Origin: Pseudobacter ginsenosidimutans
GTDB taxonomy: Bacteria > Bacteroidota > Bacteroidia > Chitinophagales > Chitinophagaceae
Assembly: GCF_007970185.1 (NCBI RefSeq)
Contig: NZ_CP042431.1
Location: 4,154,001-4,218,000, forward strand
Direction of reading: 5' to 3'
DNA: 64,000 bases
In this document: one piece after another, positions 42,213 to 64,000 of the stretch
How positions within the stretch are numbered: position 1 is the stretch's first letter
How the letters are laid out: every line of letters begins with the position of its first letter
Notes under the pieces: model-generated
What the model saw: only the letters and a program-made list of their open reading frames with translations
Database searches by the model: none
What the model was told of the DNA's origin: nothing
Program-made: the position numbers and the translations under genes

Positions 42213-42242
42213 TTGGTCAATAGTAAATGTTCCTAAAACAGG

Positions 42243-42250
42243 CAAATCTA
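42243..42250 (-). promoter_or_regulatory. Possible -7 promoter box of the beta-barrel receptor
   Basis: On the minus strand 42250-42243 reads TAGATTTG, matching TAnnTTTG, about 31 bases before the ATG at 42212. No TTTG is seen at the -33 position. Confidence 0.4.
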
Positions 42251-42330
42251 TTGATACCCCTATCGGTGAGAAGTAGTAATCAAGAACTTTTCTTACGAAT
42301 TCAGGAATTTGAAAATACAGCGGAGTGTGG

Positions 42331-42436
42331 CAGTCGCTCGCCTCCCGGCGAGTGACCTGTATTTCGTCGCCTCCGGCGACACCGTGTTCGCCGGAGGCGA
42401 ACAAACAAAAGCCACTCGCCGGGAAGCGAGCGACTG
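42331..42436. repeat. Nested 106-base palindrome between two genes
   Basis: Outer arms of 24 bases, 42331-42354 and 42413-42436, are reverse complements with one mismatch (CAGTCGCTCGC... / ...GCGAGCGACTG). Inner arms TCGCCTCCGGCGA (42367-42379) and TCGCCGGAGGCGA (42388-42400) are perfect reverse complements, and each inner arm is itself a small hairpin. The 8-base centre is CACCGTGT. No U-tract follows on either strand, so it is not a simple terminator. It is GC-richer than its flanks and could be a REP-like mobile palindrome. Confidence 0.75.
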
Positions 42437-42445
42437 AGCACTGCG

Positions 42446-42478
42446 AAAGAAAAAGGGCCAGCCTTTTACAGCCGGCCC
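42446..42478 (-). terminator. Intrinsic terminator of the PUL D operon
   Basis: On the minus strand GGGCCGGC (42478-42471) pairs with GCTGGCCC (42462-42455; one G-U) over an 8-base loop, then TTTTTCTTTC. It lies 28 bases beyond the stop of the DUF819 gene, the last gene of the long minus-strand run. Confidence 0.8.
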
Positions 42479-42505
42479 CGGTACACCAAATTGACAAGCA
42501 AGTTA

Positions 42506-43759
42506 TCAGGAAACCCACTGCATCAGCAGTCCGCTGATATAACCGCCGTAATTGCCCAGTACATAACCGAGCACGGCCAGCAGCACACCAACCGGCGCTA
42601 ATGCGGGATGAAATGCGGAAGCGATAAGCGAAGCCTGTACTGCACCACCGAGGTTGGCCTCCCCGGAAACTGCAAAAAAGAAATAAGGCGCTTTGATGAT
42701 TCTTCCCGCAATGATCATGGCCAATGCGTGGAAACAAAGCCAGATGAAGCCTACAAGAAAAAGACCGCTGTTCCTGAACACCCCGAGAATATCCATCTGC
42801 AATCCTACGGCAGTGATGAACAGATACAGGAAAACTGTACCTACGCGGGAAGCGCCTGCTCCTTCCAGCTTACGCAAAGGTGTAAACGAAAGTATCACAC
42901 CAATGCTGGTGCAGAGGATCACTACCCAGAAAAAATTGGAAGTGAGACTGAATTTCTCGAGATAAGGAAAATTGGTCTGAATGAAACTGACCAGCGGACC
43001 TGCTATGAGGTAGGCCAGTCCGCATCCTCCGAAGGCTACGGCCAGGATGGAAAGCGAATCGGAGAGATTTGGTATTTTGGCAGTAGCCTGCTGGTAGGCC
43101 TGCATCTTTTCTTTCACTTCTTCCACATCATGATCATTGGCACGGAAGAATTTGTTGATTTTTTTATTTTTTCCCACTCCATAAAGCAGAATGGCCAGCC
43201 AGATATTGGCGATCACGGCATCCAGCACTACCATGGTAGAGAACAGCTGCGGGCTGGGTTTGAACACTTCATTCAATGCTGCGAGATTGGCGCTGCCGCC
43301 GATCCAGCTGCCGGCCACAGTAGCAAGGCCGCGCCAGACGGCATCGGGCCCTTCTCCACCCACCAGGTCAGGAGCAAAACTTTTGACGATCAGGATCGTC
43401 AGCGGACCGCCGATGATCACTCCGATGGCGCCGGCCAGGAACATCACACCGGCCTTCTTCCTGAGCTTCCATAATTCCTTCATATCTACACTCAGGGTGA
43501 ACAATACCAAACCTGCCGGTAACAAGTATTGCGAAATGAGTCCATATAGTTTTGATTCTTCCCCCGACACAATATTGGCAGTATTCAAGATGCCTGGAAA
43601 AAAATACAAAGCCAAAAGTGGCGGACAGAAAAAATAGAATTTCCTGAAGAATCGATTATTGCCGGTGCTCGTTTTTTGAACGAATGCCATGAAAACGACC
43701 AGTATCGCAAATATTACAATATCACTGCTGATCAGGGGTGCGGTTGCCAGTAAAACCAT
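42506..43759 (-). CDS. DUF819-family membrane protein (putative permease)
   Basis: A 417-aa polytopic inner-membrane protein with about ten hydrophobic helices. It has the DUF819 (YjcL-like) features PGILNTANIVSGEESKLYGLIS, YLLPAGLVLFTLSVDMKEL, GGPLTILIV, TVAGSWIGGSANLAALNEVF and SGEANLGGAVQASLIASAF. The family is regarded as a putative permease. It is the last gene of the run, 6 bases after the dipeptide epimerase, so co-translation is likely. By position, import or export of the epimerised dipeptide is the best guess, but this is inference. The name YjcL is a family label only. Confidence 0.87.
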   Translation of the reverse strand: MVLLATAPLISSDIVIFAILVVFMAFVQKTSTGNNRFFRKFYFFCPPLLALYFFPGILNTANIVSGEESKLYGLISQYLLPAGLVLFTLSVDMKELWKLRKKAGVMFLAGAIGVIIGGPLTILIVKSFAPDLVGGEGPDAVWRGLATVAGSWIGGSANLAALNEVFKPSPQLFSTMVVLDAVIANIWLAILLYGVGKNKKINKFFRANDHDVEEVKEKMQAYQQATAKIPNLSDSLSILAVAFGGCGLAYLIAGPLVSFIQTNFPYLEKFSLTSNFFWVVILCTSIGVILSFTPLRKLEGAGASRVGTVFLYLFITAVGLQMDILGVFRNSGLFLVGFIWLCFHALAMIIAGRIIKAPYFFFAVSGEANLGGAVQASLIASAFHPALAPVGVLLAVLGYVLGNYGGYISGLLMQWVS

Positions 43760-43765
43760 GTTGCG

Positions 43766-44788
43766 CTATTTGTTTGAATGTTGCTGAAGACCAAGTCCAG
43801 GCTGATTGCTCAGGATGATCTTTCCTTCTTTGAGTACGGGATCCTGGTAAGGATTGTTGCTGATGAGCCAGGTGCTGTCAAGATCCACCCAGTCGCACTG
43901 CGGAGCAATGGCAGCCGCCCCGAGGATGGCAACGGAGGATTCGCCCATACAGCCTACCATCAGTTTTAGACCGAGCTCCCTGGCTCGTTTGATGATCTTA
44001 TAACCCTCATGCATACCCGTACATTTCACCATTTTGATATTCACGCCGTGATAGGCGCCTTTGGCCTTATCTACATCTGCCAGCCTTTGTACGGCTTCAT
44101 CGGCCACAATGGGAAGCGGACTGTGTTGTGTAAGCCAGGCATGATTGTCCCATTGATCTTTAGGCATCGGTTGCTCCACGAAAATGGTATTCTGTTCTTT
44201 CAGCCAGTGGATCATTTCCAGTGCCTGGCTGCGATCGGTCCAGCCCTGGTTGGCATCTACAGTAAGAGGTTGCTGACTCACGGAGCGGATGGTTTCGATG
44301 ATCTGCCTGTCATTATCACTACCCAGTTTTACTTTCAGCAATTTGAAATCGGTTGCTTCCAATACTTTCTTACGGATCATATCAGGCGTATCGATACCGA
44401 TAGTGAGGGTAGTGGCTGGCATCATAGCCGGATCGGAACCGAAGAGTTCGTAACAGGGACGGTTGGTGAGTTTGCCAACGAGATCGTGCAGCGCAATATC
44501 AACGCCTGCTTTGGCGGCAGTATGACCGGGATGCAGACTGTTTACATAAGATAAGATCGTTTCGATGTCCTGCGGATCCTTGAATTGTTCCAGTTTTACG
44601 GTTGAAAGGAAGTTGATGCTATCGTCCAGTGTTTCTGTGAAATAGTAACCGGGACAGGCTTCGCCGTAACCGATGATGCCCTCGTGCTCAATTTCAGTCA
44701 TGATCACGGTGTCTGCAATAGTAGTATGGCCGGAAATCGTGAAAGGATATTTTCTTTTCAATTCTTTTAAATACCAGGTCAGTTTCAT
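43766..44788 (-). CDS. Dipeptide epimerase, enolase superfamily (L-Ala-D/L-Glu type)
   Basis: A 340-aa cytosolic epimerase of the muconate-lactonising subgroup. The catalytic set is complete: KxK at Lys152/Lys154, metal ligands Asp178 (DANQGW), Glu205 (VEQP) and Asp230 (ADE), and the opposite-face acid/base Lys252 (NIKMVK). The spacing follows characterised L-Ala-D/L-Glu epimerases. These convert D-Glu in murein-derived dipeptides to L-Glu so that peptidases can use it; related enzymes have other dipeptide specificities, so the exact substrate is open. It lies 15 bases after a serine hydrolase gene and 6 before the DUF819 gene. Confidence 0.9.
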   Translation of the reverse strand: MKLTWYLKELKRKYPFTISGHTTIADTVIMTEIEHEGIIGYGEACPGYYFTETLDDSINFLSTVKLEQFKDPQDIETILSYVNSLHPGHTAAKAGVDIALHDLVGKLTNRPCYELFGSDPAMMPATTLTIGIDTPDMIRKKVLEATDFKLLKVKLGSDNDRQIIETIRSVSQQPLTVDANQGWTDRSQALEMIHWLKEQNTIFVEQPMPKDQWDNHAWLTQHSPLPIVADEAVQRLADVDKAKGAYHGVNIKMVKCTGMHEGYKIIKRARELGLKLMVGCMGESSVAILGAAAIAPQCDWVDLDSTWLISNNPYQDPVLKEGKIILSNQPGLGLQQHSNK

Positions 44789-44803
44789 TTTTATCGATTT
44801 AAA

Positions 44804-46441
44804 TTATTTGCTTTTGCTTCTGGAGAAGGGGATGTAATTGGCGCGGGGCAGGTTAATGGTGCAATCATTCACTGCGCCTTTTTTGGATTGGGTAAAAAGA
44901 TAGATGGCCCTGAGACCATGATCGAATCCCCTGAAGGCTGTTTGATTGCCGCGCTGATACGCCGGCGTTAGTACAACCGAATCGTAGCCATTGCGGAAGG
45001 CTACCAGTTTGTTGCCGCGCAGTTCAAATGTTAGTTCCACTATTGCATCTTTGCTGTAGAAGGCTCCGGTAAAGGGTTTGAGGGCTGCTGCATCCGGTTT
45101 GAAGCTGGTAGCTTTTCTGAACCAGGTTTCTTCTCCGCCACGTTTTACGATCAGTGTATCGCCGCCGGAAGAGAATCGGTACCCCGTGGTTTCATAGATG
45201 AACTCATTTGTTCCAACGGGTTGCAGCAGGGCTTCATGACAGATCAGTTTATTGTTGCTGATATGGAAGCTGAAGAATTCTGATTCGTCTTCAACGCCAT
45301 AATAAGCGCCGGTCTTGTTTTGGAGTGTGGCAACATCAGGATAGTTCGTTTGTACTGCCGGGATCGCTGCTTTTCTTTTCTTTCCGAATAAGATCTCGAA
45401 GATCTTCACCTGCAAATCTGCCGTGATGATATTCTTGTTATTGGTCATATAGGTAACAGATATATCGTATTGCGGGTAATAAAGTACCAGCGCGCGGTAA
45501 CCGCTAAGGAGCCCCGAATGGCTGATCTCACGGATGCCATCGAAGTCCATCACATGCACGCCGCCAACAGCATAGCTGATGGTGTCCCCACTAATGAGCA
45601 CATAGCGCTGAAGCCGGGTCTGGGCCAGTTTCCCTTTGTTGATGAATTCGTTCCAGCGGCGAAGGTCATCGGCGCAGGTGATCAGTCCTGCTGCTCCATA
45701 GGTTTCATCGGTGGTATAACCATGACGGAGATGGGTAACCGGTCCGTAATAAGCAGAGGCCATGTTCGGGATTATATCTTCAAACCTGTTCCTGAAAGCG
45801 GAATGTTTCATTCCTGCCGGAGTAAGCAGACTGTCTTTCACGAAGGCAGCGAAAGATTTTTTGGTGACCCGCTCCACTACGATCCCCAGCAAGTCGAATC
45901 CCGCATTGGTATAGGAATATCGTGTACCCGGTTTGTAATTGAGATTGGATTGCCGGCAGATCATATCGATAGCATCATCCTGGTTGAATAATCGCTGCCC
46001 GGTTGGTAATGCAGAAAGATAGGTCACATTGCGCCAGTCTTTTAGCCCACTGGTATGCGTGAGGCACATGCGTACATCGATCTTGTTGCCATAGTCCGGC
46101 AATTCAGGCACGAACTTGCGGATATCATCGTCCAGCGAGATCCGTCCCTGCTGCACCAGCAGCAGCACAGCTGCAGCGGTGAACTGTTTGGACACGGAGG
46201 CTGCTTCAAAAACAGTTTCGTTGGTGATGGGTACTTTGTGTTCAAGGCTGGCATAACCGAATTCCTTGTGGAATAGCTGTTGCCCATTGCGCGACACGAT
46301 CAATACTGCACCCGGACCATCATTCAGATACTGATTGAATAATGTGTCCAGCGATGCGCCGGCATTGGGCGATACCTGTGCACTGGCGTTGCCGCCAATA
46401 CAACAGGAACCCAATGCCAGTGCTGCAAAAAAACGTTTCAT
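44804..46441 (-). CDS. Serine hydrolase, class C beta-lactamase/peptidase S12 type, with C-terminal domain
   Basis: A 545-aa secreted hydrolase with a signal peptide ending ASAQ (residue 22). The catalytic motifs are SVSK (Ser82-Lys85), YTN (Tyr176-Asn178) and HSG (His307-Gly309). After the roughly 360-residue hydrolase domain there is a beta-rich C-terminal extension (DVATLQNKTGAYYG, AALKPFTGAFYSKDAIVEL), as in D-aminopeptidases and DUF3471-type proteins. Family members act on D-amino-acid peptides, beta-lactams or esters. Lying directly before a dipeptide epimerase, it is a good candidate for a periplasmic D-peptide-cleaving enzyme. Confidence 0.88.
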   Translation of the reverse strand: MKRFFAALALGSCCIGGNASAQVSPNAGASLDTLFNQYLNDGPGAVLIVSRNGQQLFHKEFGYASLEHKVPITNETVFEAASVSKQFTAAAVLLLVQQGRISLDDDIRKFVPELPDYGNKIDVRMCLTHTSGLKDWRNVTYLSALPTGQRLFNQDDAIDMICRQSNLNYKPGTRYSYTNAGFDLLGIVVERVTKKSFAAFVKDSLLTPAGMKHSAFRNRFEDIIPNMASAYYGPVTHLRHGYTTDETYGAAGLITCADDLRRWNEFINKGKLAQTRLQRYVLISGDTISYAVGGVHVMDFDGIREISHSGLLSGYRALVLYYPQYDISVTYMTNNKNIITADLQVKIFEILFGKKRKAAIPAVQTNYPDVATLQNKTGAYYGVEDESEFFSFHISNNKLICHEALLQPVGTNEFIYETTGYRFSSGGDTLIVKRGGEETWFRKATSFKPDAAALKPFTGAFYSKDAIVELTFELRGNKLVAFRNGYDSVVLTPAYQRGNQTAFRGFDHGLRAIYLFTQSKKGAVNDCTINLPRANYIPFSRSKSK

Positions 46442-46468
46442 GAGTTACTGATTTTTATGATAAGGAAT

Positions 46469-47596
46469 CTATTGATTGGATAAAGCGGGTGTGAACGTAA
46501 GACCGAAATGCAGGGTGTTCGACAATGCATATGCGCCCGCATTCCTGCCGGTGGGGACGATGTAAGCGAAATTGAAACCGAACTGTTTTACATGGGCTCC
46601 GATACCGGCGCTCATGTACTTCCTGCCGCCATAGGCCTTGCTTTCTGAGAAGTAACCGACACGGGCAGAAAAGAGCTCTTTGTAATTGTATTCGGCGCCG
46701 CCGGCAATACTGAGGGCAGAATTGCTCAATCCTTCGCTGTAACTTTTGAATACACTGTACCTGGAATATTCCTCCATGCCATTGGGGCCTTCGGGGATTA
46801 ACGGCGCCAGGGATTTATTGAGCTCGGCTGAAAAAGAGATCCTGCTGTCCTCATCTAACGGGTAGGTATAACCTGCGCCTGCGCCGATCCTCGCAGGAAT
46901 GAAACCGGCATTACCGTTGCCCTGGTTGATCTTTGAAGCGCCTGCATTGGCGAGTATCAGTCCCGCTGTGAAACCTTGTCCCTCCTGATTGAGGCCATTG
47001 TAGAAGGCGGCAATATCACCGGTGAAGGCGCTGCCTGTTCCGTTGCCGTTATTATCGATGGTCTTGCCGATGCTGCTGCGGATATAGCGGAAGGTGAGGG
47101 CCAGCGAGATCTTGTCGGACAATGTTCTCGCATAACCTGCATCGATAGCGAACTCATTGGGATTAGCAAGTTGCAGCAAAGTATTGTTGAAATCCCTTTC
47201 TTCCACTTTTCCTGTATTGTAGTAACGGATGGATCCGCTCACTGCCTGCTTCTCGTCCAGTTTCTGGTAGCCTGAAAGACTGAGCATATAAAAGCCGGGT
47301 GTGATCTGTTTCAGCCAGTTCACATAATTGAGGGAATAGCCTCCTTCATTCTTTGCGAATACGGTCTTGGCTGCATTATAAAAAATGGATGCTCCGTCTG
47401 CTGAAGTGCTGATACCCGTTTCTCCCATCGCGGCGGCGCGTGCGTCTGGGGCAATGCGCAGCATGGGAACGGCAGTATTCACCATTTTGGATTCCGTTCC
47501 TTCCTGCGCCCTGGCTGCCTGTGGAAGAAGACCACAGGCAGCGATAAGGAGCATTGACAATGATGTTCTGGTTGACTTGATATATTGACGAGTCAT
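46469..47596 (-). CDS. PorV/PorQ-family outer-membrane protein (T9SS-associated)
   Basis: A 375-aa outer-membrane beta-barrel with a signal peptide (ending ARAQEG). N-terminal family features are VNTAVPMLRIAPDARAAAMGETGISTSADG followed by SIFYNAAKTVFA and YVNWL, characteristic of PorV (LptO), with the FadL-like barrel and C-terminal LHFGLTFTPALSNQ. PorV shuttles T9SS cargo proteins to the attachment complex. The gene starts 10 bases after the stop of the 1730-aa T9SS cargo, so a dedicated cargo partner is likely; it may also be the genome's only PorV. Confidence 0.86.
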   Translation of the reverse strand: MTRQYIKSTRTSLSMLLIAACGLLPQAARAQEGTESKMVNTAVPMLRIAPDARAAAMGETGISTSADGASIFYNAAKTVFAKNEGGYSLNYVNWLKQITPGFYMLSLSGYQKLDEKQAVSGSIRYYNTGKVEERDFNNTLLQLANPNEFAIDAGYARTLSDKISLALTFRYIRSSIGKTIDNNGNGTGSAFTGDIAAFYNGLNQEGQGFTAGLILANAGASKINQGNGNAGFIPARIGAGAGYTYPLDEDSRISFSAELNKSLAPLIPEGPNGMEEYSRYSVFKSYSEGLSNSALSIAGGAEYNYKELFSARVGYFSESKAYGGRKYMSAGIGAHVKQFGFNFAYIVPTGRNAGAYALSNTLHFGLTFTPALSNQ

Positions 47597-47606
47597 TGTA
47601 AAGGCT

Positions 47607-50600
47607 TTAGCGTTTTATGAATTTTTTATCCAGCTTCAGTCCGGCTCCATTTACATTGATGATGTAAATGCCCGGGATCAACCTGTCTGCAGGAACAGTG
47701 AACTGATTCCTTCCCTGTTTCAGCGTAATACCGGTATGGTATATGCGCTGACCGGCGCTGGTGAACAGCGATACGGTGCCTTCTGTTTCACCTGGCATAT
47801 CCACTCTCACCTGCAATGTGGTATTGTTACTGAACCAGGCATCGAGCGTTGCATTGTCAACGGCTATCGGCTGGATGGTAAGAACACCATTTGTGTAACT
47901 GATCTCGTAGTTGGCAGCCGCAGCGCCGGAAACGGTGATCGGATAGGTGCCAATAGGAGAACTGGTAGTAGCCGTGGTGTTGAAGACAGGCTGACCGGAA
48001 AGCACACCCAAAGTTTCTCCGTTCACGAAACCGGTAAAGCTGGCCGTGAATGCAGGTATAGCCTGTTGCTGCACCATGTTTGCATCATTGGCTTTGATCA
48101 GCAGTGGCGCTTTGTTCACAGTGAGCGTGGTAGTAGCATCGGGAGCGGCCAGATAAATATCGTTGCCCGGCTGCCAGGCCCTGATGGTAGCAGTACCTGC
48201 AGCTTTGATCTTCACTTTCCCATTTTCGATAGTGGCAACATTGGTATTGTTGCTGGTGTAGTAAACAGTGAGACCTGAGCTGGCTGTTGCGCCGGGATCG
48301 AAATCTGCTTCGCCATAGGTTTTGGTGATGGCGGCGGCGATATCGATAGTTTGTGATTCAGTGGGTATTGATTGTCCGGAGAAATATTCATAGGCTCCCA
48401 TATCAGCGATGCCATTCACGATCCTGGCATTGCCGCCCAGATCAAGAGAAGTGCCCTGGGTGAGCAGGAGATTGTCTCCCTTGTCGATAGCAGGGCTTCC
48501 GGACATAAGGCGGAGGTAATTGTTGGAATTTGCATCGGTACTGAGGAATTTCGGATCCACACCGGTGATCACACCATCCACGCCGTTGGTGCCATATGCT
48601 TGTGTGAGGGTGTTCTTCAGCTCCACGATGGCATCTGCATTCTTGTAAATATCTGCGCCGTTTCCATTTATCACGGAGTTACCGTATATGATACAGTTAT
48701 GGATAGCCGCTTTCGTGTTCACAGTGCCGCCAACATAAATAGCGCCTCCATCTTTCTGTGCTTTGTTGTTATAAAAAGTACAGTTGAGGATCCGGGGTGT
48801 ATTGTAGGTGGTGGTGATATACAGTGCGCCTGCGCCGAGGTTCTGGCTGCCTGATTCATTATTGGCGAAACGTGAATTGGAAATAGTGCAATTCAGTACA
48901 GGGCCTGATGCAGTGCCTGTACCGGAAGCCCATACTGCTCCTGCATGCGCGCCTGCACTGTTGCCCGAGAAATCAACCCGGTCTATTTGATAGCCGGCGC
49001 CGGTGGAGATAACGATAGCGGCTCCGAATTGTGGTGTACGGTTATTGATGAAAGAGCCTCCGTTGATCACCAGGTTCGAAGGCTTGCTGTTCCTGCCTCC
49101 GATCTGGAAGGCGCCTGTGGCAACATTCCCATAGTTTTCGATCGCTTTCACATTGGTGAACACGGCATCCCAGTTACCCTGGAGATAAACAGCACCACCG
49201 GTGCCTGAGCCCGGTCCGTTTGCCTGGTTCTTCCTGAATTCCACATTGGTCATGCGGATCTGAGCCAGGATCTGGTCGTCTGTATTTCCCTGCAGGTAAT
49301 AGCCTGCACCGGAAGAGATACATTTATTTTCGCTGAACACAACATCGGTAAAAGTGGAATGCGTGTAATAAGAAAGCATCATACCTCCGCCGCTGCCGGT
49401 GAGGGTTTCGTTCCTGCTTACATTCACTCTCTCGAGTATCAGGTGGTTGTCTGCTCCGCTGACGGACCTGGAGAAAACACCTCCGCCCGAAGAATTGGTT
49501 CCCTTATTGTCTGCAATGTTCCCGTCTTTCATCGTAACGGTGGAGTAAATACCCATGTAGATACCTCCGCCCAGGTTCCGGGAAGTGTTGAATGTGATAT
49601 CAGATCGTGTAAGGGTCACCGTTGATGCAGTGTCCGCATTTCCTTCCGTGTAGATCCCACCGCCGCCTGCACCGGTAGATGAAGCGGAAACAGTGCTGTT
49701 CTGCGTGATGAGGGCATCCTGGAATTGAATTTGGCTGGCATAGCTGTACACACCGCCGCCAAAGCCCGGCGTAGAAGTAGTGGCGCTGCTATTGCCTTTG
49801 ATGATGCTATTGGAGAAACTGGCCTTGCTTCCTCTTGCATGGATACCGCCACCGCTGTTCCTCAGAATGCTTTTACCATTCACAGAGCTGAAGCCTTCCC
49901 CGTCGGCATTACCACCGGTAATGGTGAAGCCATCCAGTAATGTGCTGGCAGTATTGTACACGGATAGCACAACGTGATAGGCATTGTCTGATGCGTCGTT
50001 GACTGTGCCGATATCACCACTCAGGATACTTGGATTGGCCGTAGTATTCCTGTCGGATATGATGGTTTCGGTACCGGCGAAGCCTCCAAAGATCTTCACA
50101 TCATTCTTTAACACGAATGCTACATCCCTTGCGCTGATTGTGCCGGAGCCGCCTTCGAGTGTTGCTGGTTTATAGGTGCCGCCTGCTACCCAGATCTGAT
50201 CGCCGGCAGCAGCTGCATTGATCATCGCCTGCAGGTTGCCGGAAGCATTGGCCCAGCTGCTGCCATTGCCGGTACCGCCTTGCTTCACATAATGAACATT
50301 GCCACCGGAGCCGGAACCCGGCAAAATGGTGAGCGTGCCTGTTTCATAGGTGATGGTGTAATTGGGCGAAGCGGCGTCGCTGGCTGTGAGCGTGTAATCA
50401 CCGGGTGCGGATGCTGAATTGGCTGTAGTGGTGATGGTTGGTTGGGTGGTGAGACTGGCCGCATTATCACCATTCACAAAACTGGTGTACACGGCTGTGA
50501 AACCCGGGAAAGGCAGGTATTGCTCCACACTTATATTGGCTGGTTTAATGATCAGCGGGGCTTTGCTTACTGTGAGTATTTTCTTCACTGGCGTGGCAGG

Positions 50601-52799: not shown

Positions 52800-52820
52800 A
52801 AGCTGAAAATTTTGTTCTGG

Positions 52821-54407: not shown

Positions 54408-54542
54408 GGTGTTCCGGTTTGAGTATTTAAAGGCAAAGCAGTCCCTTACCGTCTTTCAGACAGTGTTAAAGGGTGTCGCGGAAACGGAGAGGCCGCGGTG
54501 GGCGGCGCTCTCAAACGATTCCGCAGTTACTGCATAACCAAA

Positions 54543-55718
54543 CTAGAAAAGGTCCTTATCCGGCCAGGCCGTGGATGAATTGTTCACTGCAGGCCATACC
54601 AGTCTGTCGAGATCTGTATTGAAATTGCCACTGGCAGATGTATTGATCAGGATCACCCAGTTGTAACCAGTGGTGGTGCGCACCATCCAGTTGCGCGTAC
54701 CCGTGTAGGTGCCGCCATGGTACCAGTTGCCATTGCTGCTCACGAGGAAGCCGCAGGCGTAGTTGCCGCTGGCAGTGGTTTTGGAGGACATGATATTGAG
54801 CGCATTGGCATCAAGTACATCAGGTACAGTATTGAACCCGTCTACCCTCACCAGGAAACGCATCATGTCTATCGGTGAAGCAAGCCAGGCGCCGGCACCG
54901 CCGATACGGGGTATCACTCCTTCCGCATATCCATATGGGTTAGTGCCACCAACACCATAGTATTTCACTTCTTTTGGTTTCCTGCCAGCAAGACTGGTAT
55001 TGGCAAAGCTCATATTGGCAATGCCCATGGGCTTGAGGATAGAATCGGTTACATATGTCTGATAGGTCTTTCCGGTGATCTTCTCGATGATCATTCCAAG
55101 AATGAAGAAACCTGCATTGGAATAATCAGAAACGGTTCCGGGGGTATTGGCAAGCGGCCTGTCGTTGATCATCCAGCCGAGCAGTTGCGCCTGTGTGTAA
55201 GTGGAGTTGGCGAACATGGGATCATTACTGCTGTTGCCCCAGCCACCGCCGGTATGGTGCAGCAATTGCTCCACCGTGATCTGTGTTACGTTGCCGGGAT
55301 AGGGTGCAGCGCCGAAAGTGGTGCCCAGCACAGCGCCTGTTCCGAATACTTTATCGTTGAATCCCAGTCTTCCCTGCTGGATCAGTTTCATGATGGTAGT
55401 GGATGTGATCCATTTGCTGAGACTGGCCAGTCGGAACTGGCTGCCGGTGTCCACTTTCAGGCCGGCTTCCCTGTCGGCAAAACCGTATCCTTTTGCATAT
55501 ACCAGTTTTCCATTTTTGGTGATGGCCAGCGAAAGTCCGGGAACATTATAGCGTGTCATGAATGCTTCGATATCATTATCCACCACTTCCAGCACCAGGT
55601 CTTCCGTGGAAGTGCCGGGAAGTTCCGGTATCTCCACCGGATCAGGTTTATAATCACTTTTGTTACAGGATGCAAACCAGAGCAGGGCTATGATCCAGAT
55701 CCAATTAATATTTTTCAT
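54543..55718 (-). CDS. Serine hydrolase lipoprotein, class C beta-lactamase type
   Basis: A 391-aa lipoprotein with lipobox FASC (Cys18) and an acidic Pro-rich tether (DYKPDPVEIPELPG). Catalytic motifs are SLSK (Ser99-Lys102), YSN in SDYSNAGFF and HGG in WYHGGTYTG. It is of normal length for the catalytic domain alone, without the C-terminal extension of its two paralogues. The gene lies 42 bases after susD. A surface-exposed D-peptidase acting before uptake by SusCD is the simplest reading. The 135-base gap to the next gene is the longest within the run and could hold an internal promoter, though no consensus box is seen. Confidence 0.9.
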   Translation of the reverse strand: MKNINWIWIIALLWFASCNKSDYKPDPVEIPELPGTSTEDLVLEVVDNDIEAFMTRYNVPGLSLAITKNGKLVYAKGYGFADREAGLKVDTGSQFRLASLSKWITSTTIMKLIQQGRLGFNDKVFGTGAVLGTTFGAAPYPGNVTQITVEQLLHHTGGGWGNSSNDPMFANSTYTQAQLLGWMINDRPLANTPGTVSDYSNAGFFILGMIIEKITGKTYQTYVTDSILKPMGIANMSFANTSLAGRKPKEVKYYGVGGTNPYGYAEGVIPRIGGAGAWLASPIDMMRFLVRVDGFNTVPDVLDANALNIMSSKTTASGNYACGFLVSSNGNWYHGGTYTGTRNWMVRTTTGYNWVILINTSASGNFNTDLDRLVWPAVNNSSTAWPDKDLF

Positions 55719-55760
55719 ATTTCTATTTTTTAACGATCGATGTTGATGGAAAGGGATTTG

Positions 55761-57182
55761 TTATTGCGCCCATCCGGGGTTCTGTTTCATATTCCTGTTG
55801 GCTTTCGTTTCAGCGAAAGGGATCGGCATGATGAACCTGTTATTGGGATATGTGTAAATGGTTTCGTCGGTGGAGCGGATATGTCTCACATCCATCTTTC
55901 TCCTGTTAAGATCGAACAGGCGGTGGCCTTCGAAAGCAAACTCTTTTCTTCTTTCCAGAATGATCCTGTCTATGAGCGCATCTCCTGTAAGTGTAATAGC
56001 GGCGGCAACATTATCGGCCCTCTGCACGATGGTGGTGAGGTCCTGCTGTGCAAGGGTAGTTTTGGCCGGATCTGATTTGCCCAGTTCTGCCCTTGCTTCC
56101 GCTCTGATCAGGTAAGCGTCCGACAGGCGAAGCACTTTGATATGATCGTCATTGGTGGATGCTCCTCTCGGATATTTTTTTACAAAGTAGGCGGGATTCT
56201 CGAAGGTGGCATTGCGAACCCCCACGATGATCAGTGAACGGCGCACATCGGTGCCGGTGTATTGATCATAGAGGTCTTGCGTGGCAAGGCCTTCACCATA
56301 CCTGGATTGCTCATAGATATATCCGAGGGAGTTGGTGCCGGCATTATCCGTTGGGAGATTCACCACTTCGAACAAAGATTCGGAACTGTAATCGGTGGCC
56401 CAGCTGGCTACATAACTGGCGCGGGGCAGGAGGGTGAAGGGACCATTGATCGCTTCGGTGGCATATTGCTCTGCCAGTTCCCAGTTGCCCATGTAGAGAT
56501 AGGCTTTGGCAAGCAATGTTTGCGCAGCGGCAGGCACCATATAACCATTCTTCTTCGACACATTCATCAGTGTAAGGGCTTTCTTCAGGTCTTCAGTGAT
56601 ACGCTCGTACACTTCTTTTACGGTTGCCCTTGCAGGTGAGATGATGCCTGTTTGCGGTTCGGTAACGATGGGAACACCCATGTGCGATGCATCGCTGGTG
56701 AAATTATAGGGTTGCGCCCAGAAGCGCACCAGGTCAAAATAGGCGAGGGCCCTTACAGCGTACAGTTCACCAATCACCTGCTGGATGGGAGCAGTGGGAT
56801 CGAGTTTTTCTCCTTCTGCGATGGCGAGATTGGCATTGCCGATCACGCGGTACATGGAGTTCCAGCAGGCAGTGGTATAGCCGTCGGTACTGACGATGGC
56901 AAAATTGTCGTGGTCCAGGAACCGGCCTCCGTTGGAGCGGCTGATGAACACGTTATCGCCCAGCAGATCGGGTACGAGTGTGAAAGTTCTCGAGTAATAG
57001 TTATTGTCCTTGAAATGCAGGTAGGCACCATTGGCTGCTGTAGTAAGCGTGGCGAGGTCCTTGATGGTCCCTGTGAGTGGTAATGATTGCGGGTTCTTCA
57101 GCTCAAGGAACTCTTTGTTGCATGCCGTGGTACAACAGGCTGCTACCATGAGTGCGGTTATATATAAGCGTGATATTTTCAT
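55761..57182 (-). CDS. SusD/RagB-family lipoprotein, PUL D
   Basis: A 473-aa lipoprotein. ATG 57182 starts MKISRLYITALMVAACCTTAC with the lipobox at Cys21; longer in-frame starts (to 57299) would overlap susC and lack a signal. SusD features: EFLELKNPQSLPLTGTIKD, GELYAVRALAYFDLVRFWAQPY, LAKAYLYMGNWELAEQYATEAI and the C-terminal LILERRKEFAFEGHRLFDLNRR ending KQNPGWAQ. It starts 28 bases after susC. It forms the substrate lid of the PUL D transporter. Confidence 0.92.
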   Translation of the reverse strand: MKISRLYITALMVAACCTTACNKEFLELKNPQSLPLTGTIKDLATLTTAANGAYLHFKDNNYYSRTFTLVPDLLGDNVFISRSNGGRFLDHDNFAIVSTDGYTTACWNSMYRVIGNANLAIAEGEKLDPTAPIQQVIGELYAVRALAYFDLVRFWAQPYNFTSDASHMGVPIVTEPQTGIISPARATVKEVYERITEDLKKALTLMNVSKKNGYMVPAAAQTLLAKAYLYMGNWELAEQYATEAINGPFTLLPRASYVASWATDYSSESLFEVVNLPTDNAGTNSLGYIYEQSRYGEGLATQDLYDQYTGTDVRRSLIIVGVRNATFENPAYFVKKYPRGASTNDDHIKVLRLSDAYLIRAEARAELGKSDPAKTTLAQQDLTTIVQRADNVAAAITLTGDALIDRIILERRKEFAFEGHRLFDLNRRKMDVRHIRSTDETIYTYPNNRFIMPIPFAETKANRNMKQNPGWAQ

Positions 57183-57210
57183 CTTGAATGATTTAAACAT
57201 GCTGCAATGA

Positions 57211-60200
57211 TCAGAAAGTAAGGTTGAGTCCGGCGAGGAATTGCCTTGCGATTGGCAGGTTCTGGTTGAGGATACCACCGATATAGGTTTCAGGGTCATG
57301 TCTCAGTCTGTCGTCTTTCACCATGGTCAGCAGGTTATTACCTCTCAGGTATACCTGCAGTTTCTGGAAAACAGTATTCTTTACCGGTACGTCGTAGGTA
57401 ATGGATACATCACGCAGACGGATATACGAACCGTCGTACATGAACCTGGAAGAATTCTGCCCGGAAAGACCTGTCTGGGTTCCGCGGTATACCATTTTGG
57501 GGGAACTGGCTTTGTCGCCTGGTTTCTGCCAGCGGTTATCGTAATCCACTCTTGCTATTACGCCGTAATCGGTAATGCCTGAAGAAGCATCGTTGGAAGT
57601 GAATGCTCCCCAGCTGTCATACAATTTGTTGCCATAGTTGAAATAGAACATGAAGGAGAGGCTGAAGTTGCGGTATTCGAATGTGTTTGTTAAACCTCCG
57701 AAGAAATGCGGCGTGGCGCTGCCCTGGTTGAAAGCTTTTGCTTCGGTGAATTTGGTAGTGGTAGCTTTTTTAGTGCCATCCACCCACCACAATCCTTCGC
57801 CGGTCTGTACATCCACACCAGCCCATCCGGGCAAATAGTATTCGTAATAATCGCCACCGATCTCGCGGTTGAAGACACCGCTGATGATCTGGTTGGAGCC
57901 GCTCAGGGTCAGCATCTTGTTCTTGTTGGTGGAGATATTGAAACTGGTTTTCCAGCTGAGTCCATTCTTGTTGGCGGCGCGGATATTCTCGGAGCTCAAT
58001 GAAACTTCGATGCCGGAGTTTTCAAAGGAGCCGACATTCCGGTTCTGGGTGGCGGCGGTGCCGGCGGCATTGGTAGCGGAAATGGGGGCGTCCATCAGCA
58101 GGTCGGATGTAACGCGGCGATAGTAATCGAAAGAGCCGGTGAGCCTGTTGTCCAGGATGCCGAACTCGAATCCGATATCGAATGGATTGTTCTTTTCCCA
58201 GGTCAGGTTGGCATTCTCGATCTGCGAGATCGAGTAGGCGGGACTGTTATTATACGAACCGGAGGTTGTATACACGCCCAGTACGCCGTAGAGGTCTGAT
58301 GCCTGGTTGCCGCTGGTGCCGTAGCTGGCGCGGAGCTTCAGCATATCGATGAAACCAAGATCGCGGATGATATCTTCCTGATCGAGGTTCCAGGCAAGAC
58401 CGATAGAACCGAATTTCGCGTAGCGGACATTCCTGCCGAAGCGGGAAGAACCATCGATCCGTCCGGTCAGGTTCAGGTAATATTTTCTCTGGTAATTGAT
58501 ACTGGTATTGAGGAAATAAGAAACCAGCGAAGAAGCTGCCTGGCTGCTCCATGCCACAAATGGCGTGGCGGCGCTGGCGAGCGTATACAGGTCGGACTGT
58601 GCAAAGCCGTCTGCCTGTGTACTGATGTATTTGCTGGTGAACTTCTGCGCTTCCTGACCCAGGGTGGCGTTGAGGCTGAAATCACCAAGTTGTTTACTGT
58701 AGCGGAGAAGGTTGGTGATATTCCAGCTGATCAGGAGGCTGGTATATTCAGCGGCCCTTCCTTTTACACTGGCCGCATCCACCCAGAGAGGGCTCCAGAA
58801 CCGGTAGTCATCGGTAAAGCTCATATCGATAGCCATCTTGCTTTCTGCAGAGAGGCCCGGCAATATTTTGAACTCTGCACCGATATCACCGAGAAAAGCA
58901 TAGATGCGGGTATCGTACCTGTTTTCTTTACGCACGATCTCGGGGTTGTAGGTGATGGCGGTATAGGAGCCGTCTGTATTGTAAGGTGCAACCCAGGGTA
59001 CCAGCCTGTTGAGTGAGCGGATGGGATTGGCTCCCAGACCGGCATTGCCGATGGTACTCAGTTTCTGAAAGTTTGGCGCCATACCAACGTTGATGGACAG
59101 CCGGTTACTGGCTTTATGCTTCAAACGGAGACGCACATTCGCTCTTTCAAATCCCTGGTCGCGCACCGTGGCGTCCTGCTTGTAATAACCAGCAGAGGTA
59201 AAGAAGGTGGTTTTATCGTTGCCGCCTGAGGCTGAGATATCATATTGACTGAATTTGCCCCGGCGGAGGATCACATCGGCCCAATCTGTATTGATATTAG
59301 GTTTCAAGCCCTGATCAACCAGGTATTGGTAAGCTGCCTGGTTGGTAGTGATGCCGGCGAGTGTGGTATTGTTATTGAGAACGCCTTCGATCAGCAGCTC
59401 GGTCATTTCGCGGGTGTTGAGAGGTTTGTTCCTGTCTGACATCGCGATCTGGCTAAAGCCTGTTTGCACACCCAGCTGCACTTTCGTTTTTCCTGCTGCA
59501 CCGCTCTTGGTAGTGATCAGGATCACACCATTGGCGCCGCGGGAACCATAAATAGAAGTGGCGGAAGCATCTTTCAATACAGTAATGGACTCGATATCAT
59601 TCGGATTGATACCAGCCAGCGTGTTGGAAGAGAAAGCGAGTACGGTGGTAGGCCCATCAACAAATGGAACACCGTCTACCACATAGAGCGGAGAGCTGGA
59701 GGCGCTGTAGGAACCGATACCACGGATCCGTACGTTGCCACTGGCGCCCGGTTGCCCGGTACCGGTAGTGGATTGAAGACCGGCCACATTGCCCTGGAGG
59801 CTTTCCTGGAATGAGGCCCTGGGCTTTCCTTCCAGGTCTTTCCCAGAAACTACGGAAGCGGAGCCTGTGTATGAAGCTCTCGACTGTTTTCCGTAGGCCA
59901 CTACAATCTCCACTTCTTTGAGATCGGAAACTTTTTCGTTGAGGCGGTAATGATGTGCTGCATTGATATTGGCGGCCGTGAGAGCAATCTCGCGGGTTTC
60001 ATATCCCACGAAACTGATCACCAGTACATCACCCGGCTCTGCATTGATGGTGAATTTACCTTCAGCATCAGTGGTGGTGCTGGGCGAACCTTTCTTCAGG
60101 GCAACGGTGGCGCCGGCCAGCGGCTTATCGTCGGGGCCGGTAACAGTGCCTGTGATCTTGTTGAAGGCATCACTGCCTGTGATCAGCAGCCTGTCTTTCA

Positions 60201-60609
60201 AAGGTATCACCGGTTTGTCTGCCAAAACAATAGTGGAATTTTTGATCACATAGTTCAGTGGCTGATTACGGAAAATCACATCCAGCACTGATTTCAGTGG
60301 GGTGTTGGCCACCTGGAGATTTACCGGCAGGGCGCGTTCCAGTTGATCATCCGTATACGTGAACGTAAAATTGGTTTGCCTTTCTATTTCCCGGAAAGCG
60401 GCTTTGAGGGGAGCCGATTTGAGATTCAGGGAAACGTTTTGCGAAAGACCATTAGCAGAAACCTGCATGAGAGCGGTAAGCCAGAAGAGCACAGCTAGTT
60501 TCATAATCCGCAACATTTTAAGCACTGACGGGCTTTGAACAGGAAAGCAGCCCCATAATAGGTTCTTATCTGCCGCGGCTGGCCGCGCAGAAAGACAGGT
60601 TAATTCCAT
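57211..60609 (-). CDS. SusC-family TonB-dependent transporter with STN domain, PUL D
   Basis: A 1132-aa outer-membrane importer. The signal core is MKLAVLFWLTALMQVSANG (internal Met36 is an alternative start). The STN domain lies at about residues 55-125 (APLKAAFREIERQTNFTFTYTD, TPLKSVLDVIF), then a CarboxypepD_reg-like domain (GPDDKPLAGATVALKKG), the SusC box VEIVVAYGKQSRASYTGSASV, the plug (VRIRGIGSYSASSSPLYVVDG, DIESITVLKDASATSIYGSRG) and a barrel ending GLNLTF. The STN domain makes it the sensor arm of the sigma/FecR pair at 60816-62605. A predicted antisense RNA starts opposite its start codon. Downstream peptide-active enzymes suggest a peptide-type substrate (inference). Confidence 0.94.
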   Translation of the reverse strand: MELTCLSARPAAADKNLLWGCFPVQSPSVLKMLRIMKLAVLFWLTALMQVSANGLSQNVSLNLKSAPLKAAFREIERQTNFTFTYTDDQLERALPVNLQVANTPLKSVLDVIFRNQPLNYVIKNSTIVLADKPVIPLKDRLLITGSDAFNKITGTVTGPDDKPLAGATVALKKGSPSTTTDAEGKFTINAEPGDVLVISFVGYETREIALTAANINAAHHYRLNEKVSDLKEVEIVVAYGKQSRASYTGSASVVSGKDLEGKPRASFQESLQGNVAGLQSTTGTGQPGASGNVRIRGIGSYSASSSPLYVVDGVPFVDGPTTVLAFSSNTLAGINPNDIESITVLKDASATSIYGSRGANGVILITTKSGAAGKTKVQLGVQTGFSQIAMSDRNKPLNTREMTELLIEGVLNNNTTLAGITTNQAAYQYLVDQGLKPNINTDWADVILRRGKFSQYDISASGGNDKTTFFTSAGYYKQDATVRDQGFERANVRLRLKHKASNRLSINVGMAPNFQKLSTIGNAGLGANPIRSLNRLVPWVAPYNTDGSYTAITYNPEIVRKENRYDTRIYAFLGDIGAEFKILPGLSAESKMAIDMSFTDDYRFWSPLWVDAASVKGRAAEYTSLLISWNITNLLRYSKQLGDFSLNATLGQEAQKFTSKYISTQADGFAQSDLYTLASAATPFVAWSSQAASSLVSYFLNTSINYQRKYYLNLTGRIDGSSRFGRNVRYAKFGSIGLAWNLDQEDIIRDLGFIDMLKLRASYGTSGNQASDLYGVLGVYTTSGSYNNSPAYSISQIENANLTWEKNNPFDIGFEFGILDNRLTGSFDYYRRVTSDLLMDAPISATNAAGTAATQNRNVGSFENSGIEVSLSSENIRAANKNGLSWKTSFNISTNKNKMLTLSGSNQIISGVFNREIGGDYYEYYLPGWAGVDVQTGEGLWWVDGTKKATTTKFTEAKAFNQGSATPHFFGGLTNTFEYRNFSLSFMFYFNYGNKLYDSWGAFTSNDASSGITDYGVIARVDYDNRWQKPGDKASSPKMVYRGTQTGLSGQNSSRFMYDGSYIRLRDVSITYDVPVKNTVFQKLQVYLRGNNLLTMVKDDRLRHDPETYIGGILNQNLPIARQFLAGLNLTF

Positions 60610-60622
60610 AACTTTGTTTTGG

Positions 60623-60714
60623 TTGGGTTAACAAAAGAGCGTCTTACAGCAGATTACTTTTTTGGGTAAACTCAATCGTCAACCGGAAGTGCCGCAAACA
60701 CGACCGGTTTTTTT
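60623..60714 (+). ncRNA. Predicted cis-antisense sRNA opposite the susC leader, PUL D
   Basis: On the plus strand (antisense to PUL D) AACCGG (60681-60686) and GTG (60689-60691) pair with CAC (60699-60701) and CCGGTT (60704-60709), with a 2x2 internal loop and a 7-base apical loop, followed by T60708-T60714. TAACTTTG (60609-60616) is a perfect TAnnTTTG box overlapping the susC start codon. RNA from about 60623 to 60712 would be about 90 nt, as in PULs B and C. No -33 box is seen. Confidence 0.5.
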
Positions 60715-60815
60715 ATTGGTGAACCCTGTTGTTATCAGGTATACATAGCAAAAAGTTTTACAGACTTAAGCAATTAGTTGTTTGGTGTTCTGTTCTTGTG
60801 CCGTTTCGTTGCGTG

Positions 60816-61961
60816 CTATTTGGTAATGGTCACTTTTTTGCCTTCTATGATGAACTTCACTTTTCCTGTGAGCTCAAACACTTCCAGGAGTTCTTTGATG
60901 GGAACGTCCCTTGATATTTTCGAATTGAATTTATTTTCTGGTTTGGCCAGCATGATGATATCTGCATCGTACCAGCGCGAAATATGCCGCATGATCTTTT
61001 CTATGTCCTGTCCCTTGAAGTAGAAATATCCATTCTTCCATGCCAGCTCGGCTTCCATATCCACCTGCTCTGCAATTTTGATATTCCCGGCTCTGTCCAC
61101 TTCCGACTGTTGTCCTTCTTTCAAGATCACTTTCTGATTTCCTGCCGCTACACTTACGCTGCCGCTGATCAGGGTGGTTCTGATGCCTTCTTCATCCTTG
61201 TAGGCATTCACGTTGAAACTGGTGCCGAGCACCTGTATCGTGGAATTGCCTGTTGTTACGATGAATGGCTGTTTACTGTTTTTCACTATTTCAAAATAGG
61301 CTTCACCATTGATCTCCACATTCCTTTCCTTGCCATCGAATGCGGTTGGGAAGCGGATCGAGCTCATGGCGTTCAGCCATACGCGCGAACTGTCCGGCAA
61401 TGTGATCTGGTACTGACCTCCACGCGGTGTGGCGATGGTATTGAAACCTGCTGCCTTCCCTTTGGCGCTTTCATAGGCTAGTTGTCCATTCGCTGTTTTG
61501 CGGATCCTGGTGAGCCCCTGTTCAGCGAGATAACCATTGGACGCACTGTCAAGGATAATGGTACTTCCATCTGCGAGTGTCAGCATCGCTTTGTTGCCGC
61601 CCGGTTGAATGATCACTGGCTGCTGAACGGTTTCGGTTCCTGATTCGGCTTGTCTGCTGGTAAAGAACCATGCTCCTGCGCCGGCCACCAGGATCACTGC
61701 CGCCACCCAGCCCCATCTTCTCAAAAAATGGACACGGTGTACGGGAGCAGCTTTGGGAAATAATTTTCTCCTGATCTGTGCATCGATATTGTCAGGCATC
61801 TCTTCCGATGGCTCATAACCCTGCCAGGCCTCCGCAATGATGGCTTCTAGGTCTTCATTATCTGTGCCGGACCTTAACAGTCTGAACAATTCTTTTTCTT
61901 CTTCTGGTGCAATCGTGCTGTTGAAATATTTTCTTAACAGATCGCCTGTTTGCTGATGCAT
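60816..61961 (-). CDS. FecR-family anti-sigma factor, PUL D
   Basis: A 381-aa single-pass inner-membrane protein. The cytoplasmic N-terminus contains DLLRKYFNSTIAPEEEKELFRLL. The TM helix (WGWVAAVILVAGAGAWFF) is near residues 87-104. The FecR domain (TPRGGQYQITLPDSSRVWLNA, EAYFEIVKNSKQPFIV, IQVLGTSFNVNAY) lies at about 175-275 and the C-terminal DUF4974 (IMRHISRWYDADIIMLA, ELLEVFELTGKVKFIIEG) closes it. It is 62 bases downstream of the sigma gene and 206 bases upstream of susC. The shared WYD-plus-LGTSFNVNAY layout with the other two FecR proteins shows common descent. Confidence 0.93.
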   Translation of the reverse strand: MHQQTGDLLRKYFNSTIAPEEEKELFRLLRSGTDNEDLEAIIAEAWQGYEPSEEMPDNIDAQIRRKLFPKAAPVHRVHFLRRWGWVAAVILVAGAGAWFFTSRQAESGTETVQQPVIIQPGGNKAMLTLADGSTIILDSASNGYLAEQGLTRIRKTANGQLAYESAKGKAAGFNTIATPRGGQYQITLPDSSRVWLNAMSSIRFPTAFDGKERNVEINGEAYFEIVKNSKQPFIVTTGNSTIQVLGTSFNVNAYKDEEGIRTTLISGSVSVAAGNQKVILKEGQQSEVDRAGNIKIAEQVDMEAELAWKNGYFYFKGQDIEKIMRHISRWYDADIIMLAKPENKFNSKISRDVPIKELLEVFELTGKVKFIIEGKKVTITK

Positions 61962-62023
61962 AGGATTGTATTATACAAATAGACAAGTGGTAGAAATAAA
62001 AGTATGACAAGCCCCCAAAAAAA

Positions 62024-62605
62024 TTATTGCTGCAAAGCCATTTGCCAGCAAATGATCACCAGACCGGAGCCGAGCCCGCTTCTGATAAAGGTCATGGAGC
62101 GTGAAAGATGTGTTTTGACGGTGCTAAGGCTGATGTTCAGTTGCCGGGCGATCTCTTCCTGTTTCAGTCCTTCTTCCTTGCTGAGGCGATAAACCACCCG
62201 CTGCTGTTCCGGCAGCTGATCCACCAGATGCCTCAGCTTCCGGCGAAGTTCATTGTACAGCACGGGATCGCTCTCTTCACTGTTGCCTGCCTCTTTGGAA
62301 AGCTGGTTCACAATCTCATCTTCAAATGCGATCCGCTTCAGCAGGTTGATGCTGCGATTGTATACCATGCTGTGGAAATAGTGGGAGAAGGATTGAACAT
62401 GGGAGAACCTGGCGCGGTCTTCCCAGATCTTGAGGAATACGTCCTGAACAATGTCGGCAGTCATTTCGGGCGATTTGGTCAATCGCAGAATAAAACCATA
62501 GAGCTTATGACGGTACTGGTTGTACAGTGTTTCAAAGGCGCCTGCGTCACCTTGCTGAATACGTTCCAGCAAGTCTTTCTCATTATATGGTATAATTTCT
62601 GCCAA
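62024..62605 (-). CDS. ECF sigma-70 factor, PUL D
   Basis: A 193-aa ECF sigma factor. Region 2: IQQGDAGAFETLYNQYRHKLYG, MTADIVQDVFLKIWEDRARF, FSHYFHSMVYNRSINLLKR. Region 4: LVDQLPEQQRVVYRLSKEEGL, QEEIARQLNISLSTVKTHLSRSM. This is the first gene of the PUL D run and has the clearest promoter of the three sigma genes (TACATTTG at 62698-62691 with TTTG 18 bases upstream). It is predicted to activate the susCD promoter and through it the long operon when FecR is released. Confidence 0.93.
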   Translation of the reverse strand: MAEIIPYNEKDLLERIQQGDAGAFETLYNQYRHKLYGFILRLTKSPEMTADIVQDVFLKIWEDRARFSHVQSFSHYFHSMVYNRSINLLKRIAFEDEIVNQLSKEAGNSEESDPVLYNELRRKLRHLVDQLPEQQRVVYRLSKEEGLKQEEIARQLNISLSTVKTHLSRSMTFIRSGLGSGLVIICWQMALQQ

Positions 62606-63944: not shown

Positions 63945-64000
63945 TATACAACAATTAATAGTGATCAATGATTTTGGACAGTGTGTTTTTGACGGCGCTC

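Follow-up and report, generated by a model that had tools for sequence, protein, structure and literature searches.

The window analysed here is a stretch of 64,000 nucleotides from Pseudobacter ginsenosidimutans (positions 4154001-4218000 of a 7.8 Mb genome in a single contig). On its minus strand, a sigma/FecR pair is followed by nine genes for a SusC transporter, a SusD lipoprotein, two S12-family serine hydrolases (SH1, SH2), a cargo protein of the type IX secretion system (T9SS), a PorV paralogue, a third serine hydrolase (SH3), a dipeptide-epimerase homologue (EPI) and a DUF819 membrane protein (Table 1). An earlier note, made from the sequence alone, had described this run as ending in a terminator and separated by gaps of 6-135 bases, and all genes named in it were found in place. 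The gaps between the nine structural genes, counted from DUF819 upwards, are 6, 15, 27, 10, 21, 135 and 42 bases; that between SusD and SusC is 10 or 28 bases depending on the start of SusD. The listed open reading frame (ORF) of SusD starts at 57299 and overlaps SusC, and the internal ATG codons at 57200 and 57182 suit a lipoprotein signal. FecR and SusC are 206 bases apart, sigma and FecR 62 bases.

Table 1. Features of the SusCD operon and its regulatory genes (positions within the window; percentages are amino acid identities)
Feature	Position	Strand	Evidence
Extracytoplasmic function (ECF) sigma factor	62024..62605	-	PF08281/PF04542; 94% to P. rhizosphaerae, 37% to the sigma of the Gynurincola operon
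FecR anti-sigma factor	60816..61961	-	PF04773, PF16344; 90% (P. rhizosphaerae), 37% (Gynurincola)
SusC outer-membrane transporter, N-terminal STN signalling domain	57211..60609	-	TIGR04056 720 bits, TIGR04057, PF07660
SusD lipoprotein	55761..57200 (start 57200 or 57182)	-	PF07980, PF14322
SH1, S12-family serine hydrolase, probable lipoprotein (signal by eye)	54543..55718	-	PF00144 182 bits; SLSK/YSN/HGG; 92% (P. rhizosphaerae), 66% (Gynurincola)
SH2, S12-family serine hydrolase with C-terminal DUF3471	52821..54407	-	PF00144, PF11954; SNSK/YDN/HGG
T9SS cargo, 1730 aa, two beta-helix + MBG units, type A C-terminal domain	47607..52799	-	PF18676, NF041518, TIGR04183
PorV paralogue adjoining the cargo gene	46469..47596	-	NF033710 300.3 bits (cut-off 250)
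SH3, S12-family serine hydrolase	44804..46441	-	PF00144 208.6 bits; SVSK/YTN/HSG
EPI, enolase-superfamily dipeptide-epimerase homologue	43766..44788	-	PF02746 44.5 bits, PF13378 114.1 bits (both above cut-off); PDB matches
DUF819 membrane protein, CPA/AT transporter clan, probable inner-membrane importer	42506..43759	-	PF05684 254.7 bits; hydrophobic segments
Two terminator-like hairpins, 3' of DUF819	42479-42454 and 42435-42410	-	Hairpin scan

A SusC/RagA transporter followed by a SusD lipoprotein and co-directional enzymes (TIGR04056, TIGR04057, PF07980, PF14322) marks the run as a SusCD utilisation locus. Family-profile scans gave no match to a glycoside hydrolase (GH) or polysaccharide lyase (PL) family at sequence level among the nine genes, in line with the earlier note, and none to the NlpC/P60, amidase or LD-carboxypeptidase families. 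The hairpin total barely exceeds that of shuffled sequences (27 versus a mean of 20.5, sd 4.1). The remaining minus-strand candidates all fall within genes, and the case for a terminator after DUF819 is made by position, not by number.

The identical nine-gene order is found in the window, in Pseudoflavitalea rhizosphaerae (L007 and L031) and in Gynurincola endophyticus (L037 and L038), that is, in three species from two genera, Gynurincola being the other genus. A search for this order in relatives had been proposed in the earlier note, and it returned these two. Identities to Gynurincola are 67% for SusC, 68% for SusD, 66% for SH1, 68-70% for SH2, 57% for the cargo, 62% for PorV, 59% for SH3, 79% for the epimerase and 84% for DUF819. 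The nine-gene operon is real, conserved beyond chance adjacency, and unusual. It is also rare among the sampled genomes. Epimerase searches gave seven genomes with E <= 1e-90 among 294 of the family and six with E <= 1e-95 among 348 of the order, own genome included in both; the two sets are samples of larger groups, and their matches overlap in G000, G002 and G040. Only these three hold an epimerase at least 79% identical to EPI, and all three have the nine-gene run. A pattern-based scan of the named genomes found such an epimerase only in P. rhizosphaerae and Gynurincola. The DNA downstream of DUF819 is common to the window and P. rhizosphaerae. Since the gene order is kept but window positions 30001-42500 find no match in the Gynurincola sequence beyond DUF819, the nine genes appear to have been kept or moved as a unit.

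The regulatory end behaves differently in Gynurincola. Its sigma and FecR proteins, about 37% identical to the window pair, are no nearer to that pair than to two further pairs of this kind in the window genome. In bins of 50 residues, SusC identity to Gynurincola is 28-48% over residues 1-250 versus 64-94% over residues 251-1132. A sharp conservation edge near SusC residue 250 is visible between Gynurincola L038:3489-9030 and window 57211-62605. Judging from these alignments, the regulatory cassette (sigma, FecR and the signalling end of SusC) seems to have been swapped in one piece in Gynurincola.

EPI is assigned by its N- and C-terminal MR_MLE domains to the MLE-subgroup of dipeptide epimerases (Table 1). 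In alignments it retains the KxK motif, the Asp-Glu-Asp metal ligands, the second Lys and the C-terminal DLD (DxD) motif; in dipeptide epimerases, the DxD motif serves the free amino group of the substrate. No signal peptide was seen by eye. The nearest solved relative in the sequence search is PDB 3iji/3ijl/3ijq (388.7 bits), which we take to be locus BT_1313 of Bacteroides thetaiotaomicron, and the EPI model (pLDDT 89.9) matches 3ijq in the structure search with 52% identity and a TM of 0.94. The PDB titles of the BT_1313 structures name complexes with L-Ala-D-Glu. EPI stays below the cut-offs of the NCBIfam models for L-Ala-D/L-Glu epimerase (AEE; NF011708, 125.9 of 343 bits; NF041118, 121.3 of 500 bits). 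Its top NCBIfam match is NF042940 (DgcA) with 207.5 bits versus a cut-off of 400; with this score, and with the genome's single DUF1611 match lying in a paralogous run (see below), EPI does not qualify as an N-acetyl-D-Glu racemase of the DgcA type.

The 20s loop sets EPI apart from its solved relative. The seventh residue after a conserved Phe is Arg in BT_1313 itself and in all 17 BT_1313-type enzymes compared (45-55% identical), and Thr in all five members of the window clade (EPI, two orthologues and two copies of a paralogue), each of which adjoins a DUF819 gene. The loop of EPI reads SGHTT and does not present the basic residue tested for AEE; the His at F+5 remains, and the comparison bears on the Arg only. 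The 50s loop is CPGYYF or SPGHYL in the window clade versus SMPPYL, SMVPYM/L, SLPPYL or AMPPYY in the Arg enzymes. More distant homologues have Lys at the 20s position (own3, G001 and G005, 35-38% identical) or Met (EPI3 and L005, both of the own genome), and these five are excluded from the 17. The loops of G1031 and G1073 have Arg. In a sequence tree, a modestly supported branch (71/99; present in 72% of bootstrap trees) separates the five enzymes without Arg from the rest; the tree omits G1031 and G005, places G1073 wrongly and is impaired by long branches. Arg occurs in the 20s loop of 3iji, 1jpd, 4gfi and 1jpm, but at no single common position. In YkfB of B. subtilis, the side chain of Glu is presumably bound by Arg24, which is two residues closer to the Phe than the BT_1313 Arg and may nevertheless be equivalent to it. 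The next best solved match by sequence, 3jva (a dipeptide epimerase of Enterococcus faecalis), is likewise without Arg in this stretch. The 20s-loop change is a new and testable point.

The earlier note had taken EPI for an L-Ala-D/L-Glu-type epimerase. Its placement in the dipeptide-epimerase group holds; the substrate part is weakened, because the clade lacks the 20s-loop Arg that BT_1313-type enzymes keep, and L-Ala-D/L-Glu is probably not its substrate. L-Ala-D-Glu as the expected dipeptide was accordingly lowered after this comparison. A survey of dipeptide-epimerase specificities reportedly exists, and specificity does shift within the family: the titles of solved members name L-Arg-D-Lys, D-Ala-L-Val or L-Ala-L-Leu, and an enzyme from Thermotoga acts on L-Ala-D/L-Phe, -Tyr and -His (PMC5808125). 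The dipeptide handled by EPI probably has a non-acidic second residue, and our leading guess is a dipeptide with D-Ala or some other neutral D-residue at its C-terminus.

All three serine hydrolases match PF00144 and carry the SxxK/YxN/HxG motifs of S12 enzymes. Their matches include D-aminopeptidase, alkaline D-peptidase, DD-carboxypeptidases and ClbP. SH3 reaches 137.5 bits against the D-aminopeptidase model NF009622 (cut-off 443). By family, a D-peptide activity of SH1-SH3 is possible.

At its end the cargo protein carries a sorting domain of type A (TIGR04183, 28.0 bits against a cut-off of 23), and its gene stands next to that of a PorV-family barrel. Residues 1-700 were modelled as a beta-helix (pLDDT 73.6). 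Foldseek gave a best E of 2e-3 and TM <= 0.39 among the best 50 of 239 matches; with no match at E <= 0.001 and a generic beta-helix only, the structure was dropped as a guide to function. The weak matches listed include two bacterial self-association or adhesin proteins. There are two cargo units in the window, two in Gynurincola (1731 aa, from length and full-length alignment) and one in P. rhizosphaerae (913 aa). The unit number thus varies between sister species (window 47607-52799 versus L007:4441-7182). Besides the operon PorV, the genome has a single further PorV match, which lies at 918332 and is 43% identical to it. Among 27 further PorV loci of the family (L108-L134), ten have a type-A-like tail on the directly upstream same-strand gene, five flagged by pattern and five by eye. 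Seven of these ten upstream proteins match TIGR04183 at E <= 1e-3, four of them above the cut-off. A cargo with its own PorV seems to recur in Chitinophagaceae, as far as these tails indicate. A helper role of the surface protein in holding material, raised in the earlier note, is possible.

The DUF819 protein has hydrophobic segments along its whole length; clan assignment (CPA/AT) and topology follow PMC8396727. A DUF819 match at E <= 1e-40 is present in 82 of 296 sampled Bacteroidota genomes. Ten chosen neighbours of DUF819 genes were scanned. At L058 they are DapB, DapA and a protein of the beta-lactamase fold (23.8 bits against a cut-off of 22), and at L049 an M23 peptidase; the other six are an esterase, a phytase, a NusG-like protein and three proteins without a family. 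By eye, dapB/dapA-like neighbours occur in L055-L060 and the beta-lactamase-fold type in 14 of 29 DUF819 loci; the recurring neighbourhoods of the L058 kind are probably one lineage. In Xanthomonas sacchari an S9 peptidase lies beside DUF819, and in Neisseria meningitidis an M15 peptidase, the latter according to PMC12671195. Both pairs fit a peptide role. No paper on DUF819 that addresses peptide transport by its title was found.

The own genome pairs an EPI gene with DUF819 a second time, together with an S12 gene that resembles SH2 (62%, 57% and 56% identity, respectively), and both DUF819 genes found in this genome adjoin an EPI paralogue. The paralogous same-strand run reads RraA-SDR-MFS-UxuA-EPI2-DUF819-EPI3-DUF1611-S15-S12-GH115-GH115; its RraA-to-S15 part is also found in G002 (L030). 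The DUF1611 gene is of the DgcN family (DUF1611 173 bits; NF041892 109 bits, below the cut-off of 480) and hints at D-Glu or other D-amino acids. This 17-kb run (L025:1342-18507) combines hexuronate genes and two GH115 genes with two epimerase homologues, DUF819, the DgcN-family gene, S15 and S12, and might serve for a uronic-acid glycan decorated with amino acids.

Upstream of the sigma gene and in the same direction, an S9 hydrolase gene (62814-63968) lies inside the window. Outside the window, the next operon upstream holds an S13 gene (D-Ala-D-Ala carboxypeptidase family) and an S9/DPPIV peptidase gene. The S13 gene is split into two overlapping ORFs here (L027:3956-5250) versus a single ORF of 431 aa in P. 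rhizosphaerae (L031:1806-3101). On the other side, a TonB-dependent receptor gene (OMP_b-brl_3, 39804-42281) sits between DUF819 and a RibD_C gene; the equivalent spot in P. rhizosphaerae (L007:12284-12451) is too small for it.

Several known systems share parts of this arrangement. RagAB of Porphyromonas gingivalis and BT_2263-2264 are peptide-type SusCD systems with peptide ligands. They have the SusC-SusD core in common with the window, and among solved relatives of the window SusC, RagA comes second (297 bits) after the SusC homologue 8aa4 (317 bits); the window operon differs by adding an epimerase, S12 hydrolases, DUF819 and a T9SS cargo/PorV pair. SusD matches with E <= 1e-70 were found in 8 of 345 genomes of the class, own included, and are 38-45% identical apart from the window copy. 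The eight loci read do not share the operon, ten chosen neighbours have no common theme, and SusCD relatives were discarded as a substrate guide. The DgcN-DgcA pathway for D-glutamate resembles the locus through the DgcA model at the top of EPI's matches and the DgcN-family gene of the paralogous run; it differs in that both scores are far below cut-off and in that none of the nine genes is of the DgcN family. In SprF-SprB pairs, a FadL-type outer-membrane barrel gene adjoins a cargo gene as it does here, but these pairs are described as PorP-like with type B cargo in PMC9143113, whereas the window barrel is of the PorV family and its cargo has a type A sorting domain. BT_1313 and the ykfB-ykfC pair share with EPI the enolase-superfamily fold, the catalytic motifs and, for BT_1313, the identity given above. 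The differences are the Thr in place of Arg, the altered 50s loop and the neighbours, DUF819 and S12 genes lying beside EPI. An NlpC/P60 gene adjoins the BT_1313-type relative in B. finegoldii (annotated) and G191, and is placed beside the epimerase relative of B. thetaiotaomicron by PMC2954226. It was not the one neighbour scanned in each of G071, G029, G1031 and L011. NlpC/P60 as a regular partner was thus rejected (two of six relatives with a neighbour examined). That the window run has no such gene therefore counts for little, which slightly raises the standing of the L-Ala-D-Glu reading and lowers that of the best reading.

Based on this dataset, we hypothesize that the SusCD operon serves to import and break down short peptides containing D-residues, a proposal that we hold with about as much belief as doubt. 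It draws on the nine-gene order kept in three species, the D-peptidase relatives among the S12 matches, the upstream S13/S9 genes, the kinship of EPI with BT_1313, the second EPI-DUF819-S12 set and the peptide or cell-wall genes found beside DUF819 in some other genomes. The sigma/FecR pair would activate the operon once SusC is occupied, as in other members of its family, and SusC-SusD would take up the peptide. Carried or anchored by its own PorV, the beta-helix cargo would be displayed at the surface and bind or present material. SH1, SH2 and SH3, whose motifs are present, may shorten the peptide, either on the cell surface or in the periplasm, and DUF819, judging from fold clan and gene pairing, may carry the resulting dipeptide over the inner membrane. 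In the cytoplasm, EPI would invert the alpha-carbon of the C-terminal residue by the two-Lys mechanism of its family, for which the residues are present, and ordinary L,L-dipeptidases would then split the product.

A number of observations weigh against this proposal. The operon contains no dipeptidase. The S12 matches also include esterases and carboxylesterases, 1ci8 and 4ivi among them, and SH1-SH3 pass no NCBIfam cut-off among the best 25 of 48, 48 and 45 families, respectively. The statement of the earlier note that all recognisable enzymes are peptide or D-peptide active is unproven because S12 includes such esterases, and because of the cargo fold and the setting of the paralogous trio described below. 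None of 29 DUF819 loci from other Bacteroidota genomes has an EPI-like gene within roughly 1.5 kb, and a general EPI-DUF819 linkage in Bacteroidota was dropped on this count. Six of the ten scanned DUF819 neighbours are without a cell-wall link, and the Aureibacter DUF819 neighbourhood holds no peptide or cell-wall gene. Finally, the paralogous trio is found in a glycan setting (RraA, SDR, MFS, UxuA and two GH115), in which UxuA and GH115 hint at hexuronates, opposite to the DgcN-family gene, and the weak structural neighbours of the cargo, among the best 50 of 239, are mostly carbohydrate-active, the beta-helix being a frequent fold of such proteins. The latter two points speak for an operon for glycans or glycoconjugates. 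In such an operon the S12 proteins would be esterases, as the carboxylesterases among their relatives allow, the beta-helix protein would bind or cleave a polysaccharide, and EPI and DUF819 would handle an amino-acid or peptide decoration. The operon itself, however, matches no GH or PL family, the cargo matches are weak at the E and TM values given above, and a dipeptide-group epimerase with a DLD motif is ill-suited to a sugar substrate. We regard this explanation as quite unlikely.

Among peptide sources, cell-wall scavenging of peptidoglycan stem peptides, with EPI epimerising L-Ala-D-Glu, was proposed in the earlier note. It fits the ligand in the crystals of BT_1313, the DD-carboxypeptidases contained in the S13 and S12 families, the DAP-pathway (diaminopimelate) and M23 genes beside DUF819 elsewhere, and two NlpC/P60 genes elsewhere in the own genome. 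The 20s-loop Arg, missing in five of five clade enzymes and present in 17 of 17 BT_1313-type relatives, argues against it, as do the lack of NlpC/P60, amidase and LD-carboxypeptidase families among the nine genes. Nor does the run look like a stem-peptide recycling operon: no gamma-D-Glu-DAP endopeptidase, LD-carboxypeptidase or amidase family was found in it, and S13 occurs only in the upstream operon. We consider this explanation somewhat unlikely. What remains of the earlier proposal of D-amino-acid peptide uptake is the conserved SusCD pair, the epimerase, the S12 motifs and the upstream S13 gene; no muropeptide-specific enzyme stands in the run. D-stereospecific peptidases that confer resistance are known. 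As a sub-case of D-residue peptide uptake, the operon might attack or feed on non-ribosomal peptides of competitors, such as lipopeptide antibiotics, with S12 enzymes cutting at D-residues and EPI converting D-dipeptides. Alkaline D-peptidase, ClbP and D-aminopeptidase among the S12 relatives, an EPI without the Arg presumed to bind the acid, which suits neutral D-residues, and the species name of the nearest relative, which suggests the rhizosphere, are in its favour, but the three hydrolases fall far under the NCBIfam cut-offs listed, and we rate it unlikely. The best reading of the operon is, in our view, a system for D-residue peptides other than L-Ala-D-Glu, with the balance of belief about even.

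A more far-reaching version of this reading is offered tentatively, as less probable. It holds that the operon formed around an epimerase that moved from L-Ala-D-Glu to another D-residue dipeptide, and that it provides a full 'unmirroring' route from the outer membrane to the cytoplasm, with DUF819 as dipeptide carrier, a PorV paralogue for a single surface protein, and cell-wall D-Ala peptides or non-ribosomal peptides as the source. No published account of such an operon was found in the open literature; subscription papers were outside this scope, and SusCD papers may have been missed.

SusCD loci are almost always read as glycan loci. If our reading is true, the operon would show how Bacteroidota bring peptides with D-residues through the outer membrane, and it would provide a testable substrate class for DUF819, which is of 'unknown function' in Pfam. 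It would further make a specificity switch of an epimerase traceable to one loop, and would tie a dedicated PorV/cargo pair to the capture of nutrients.

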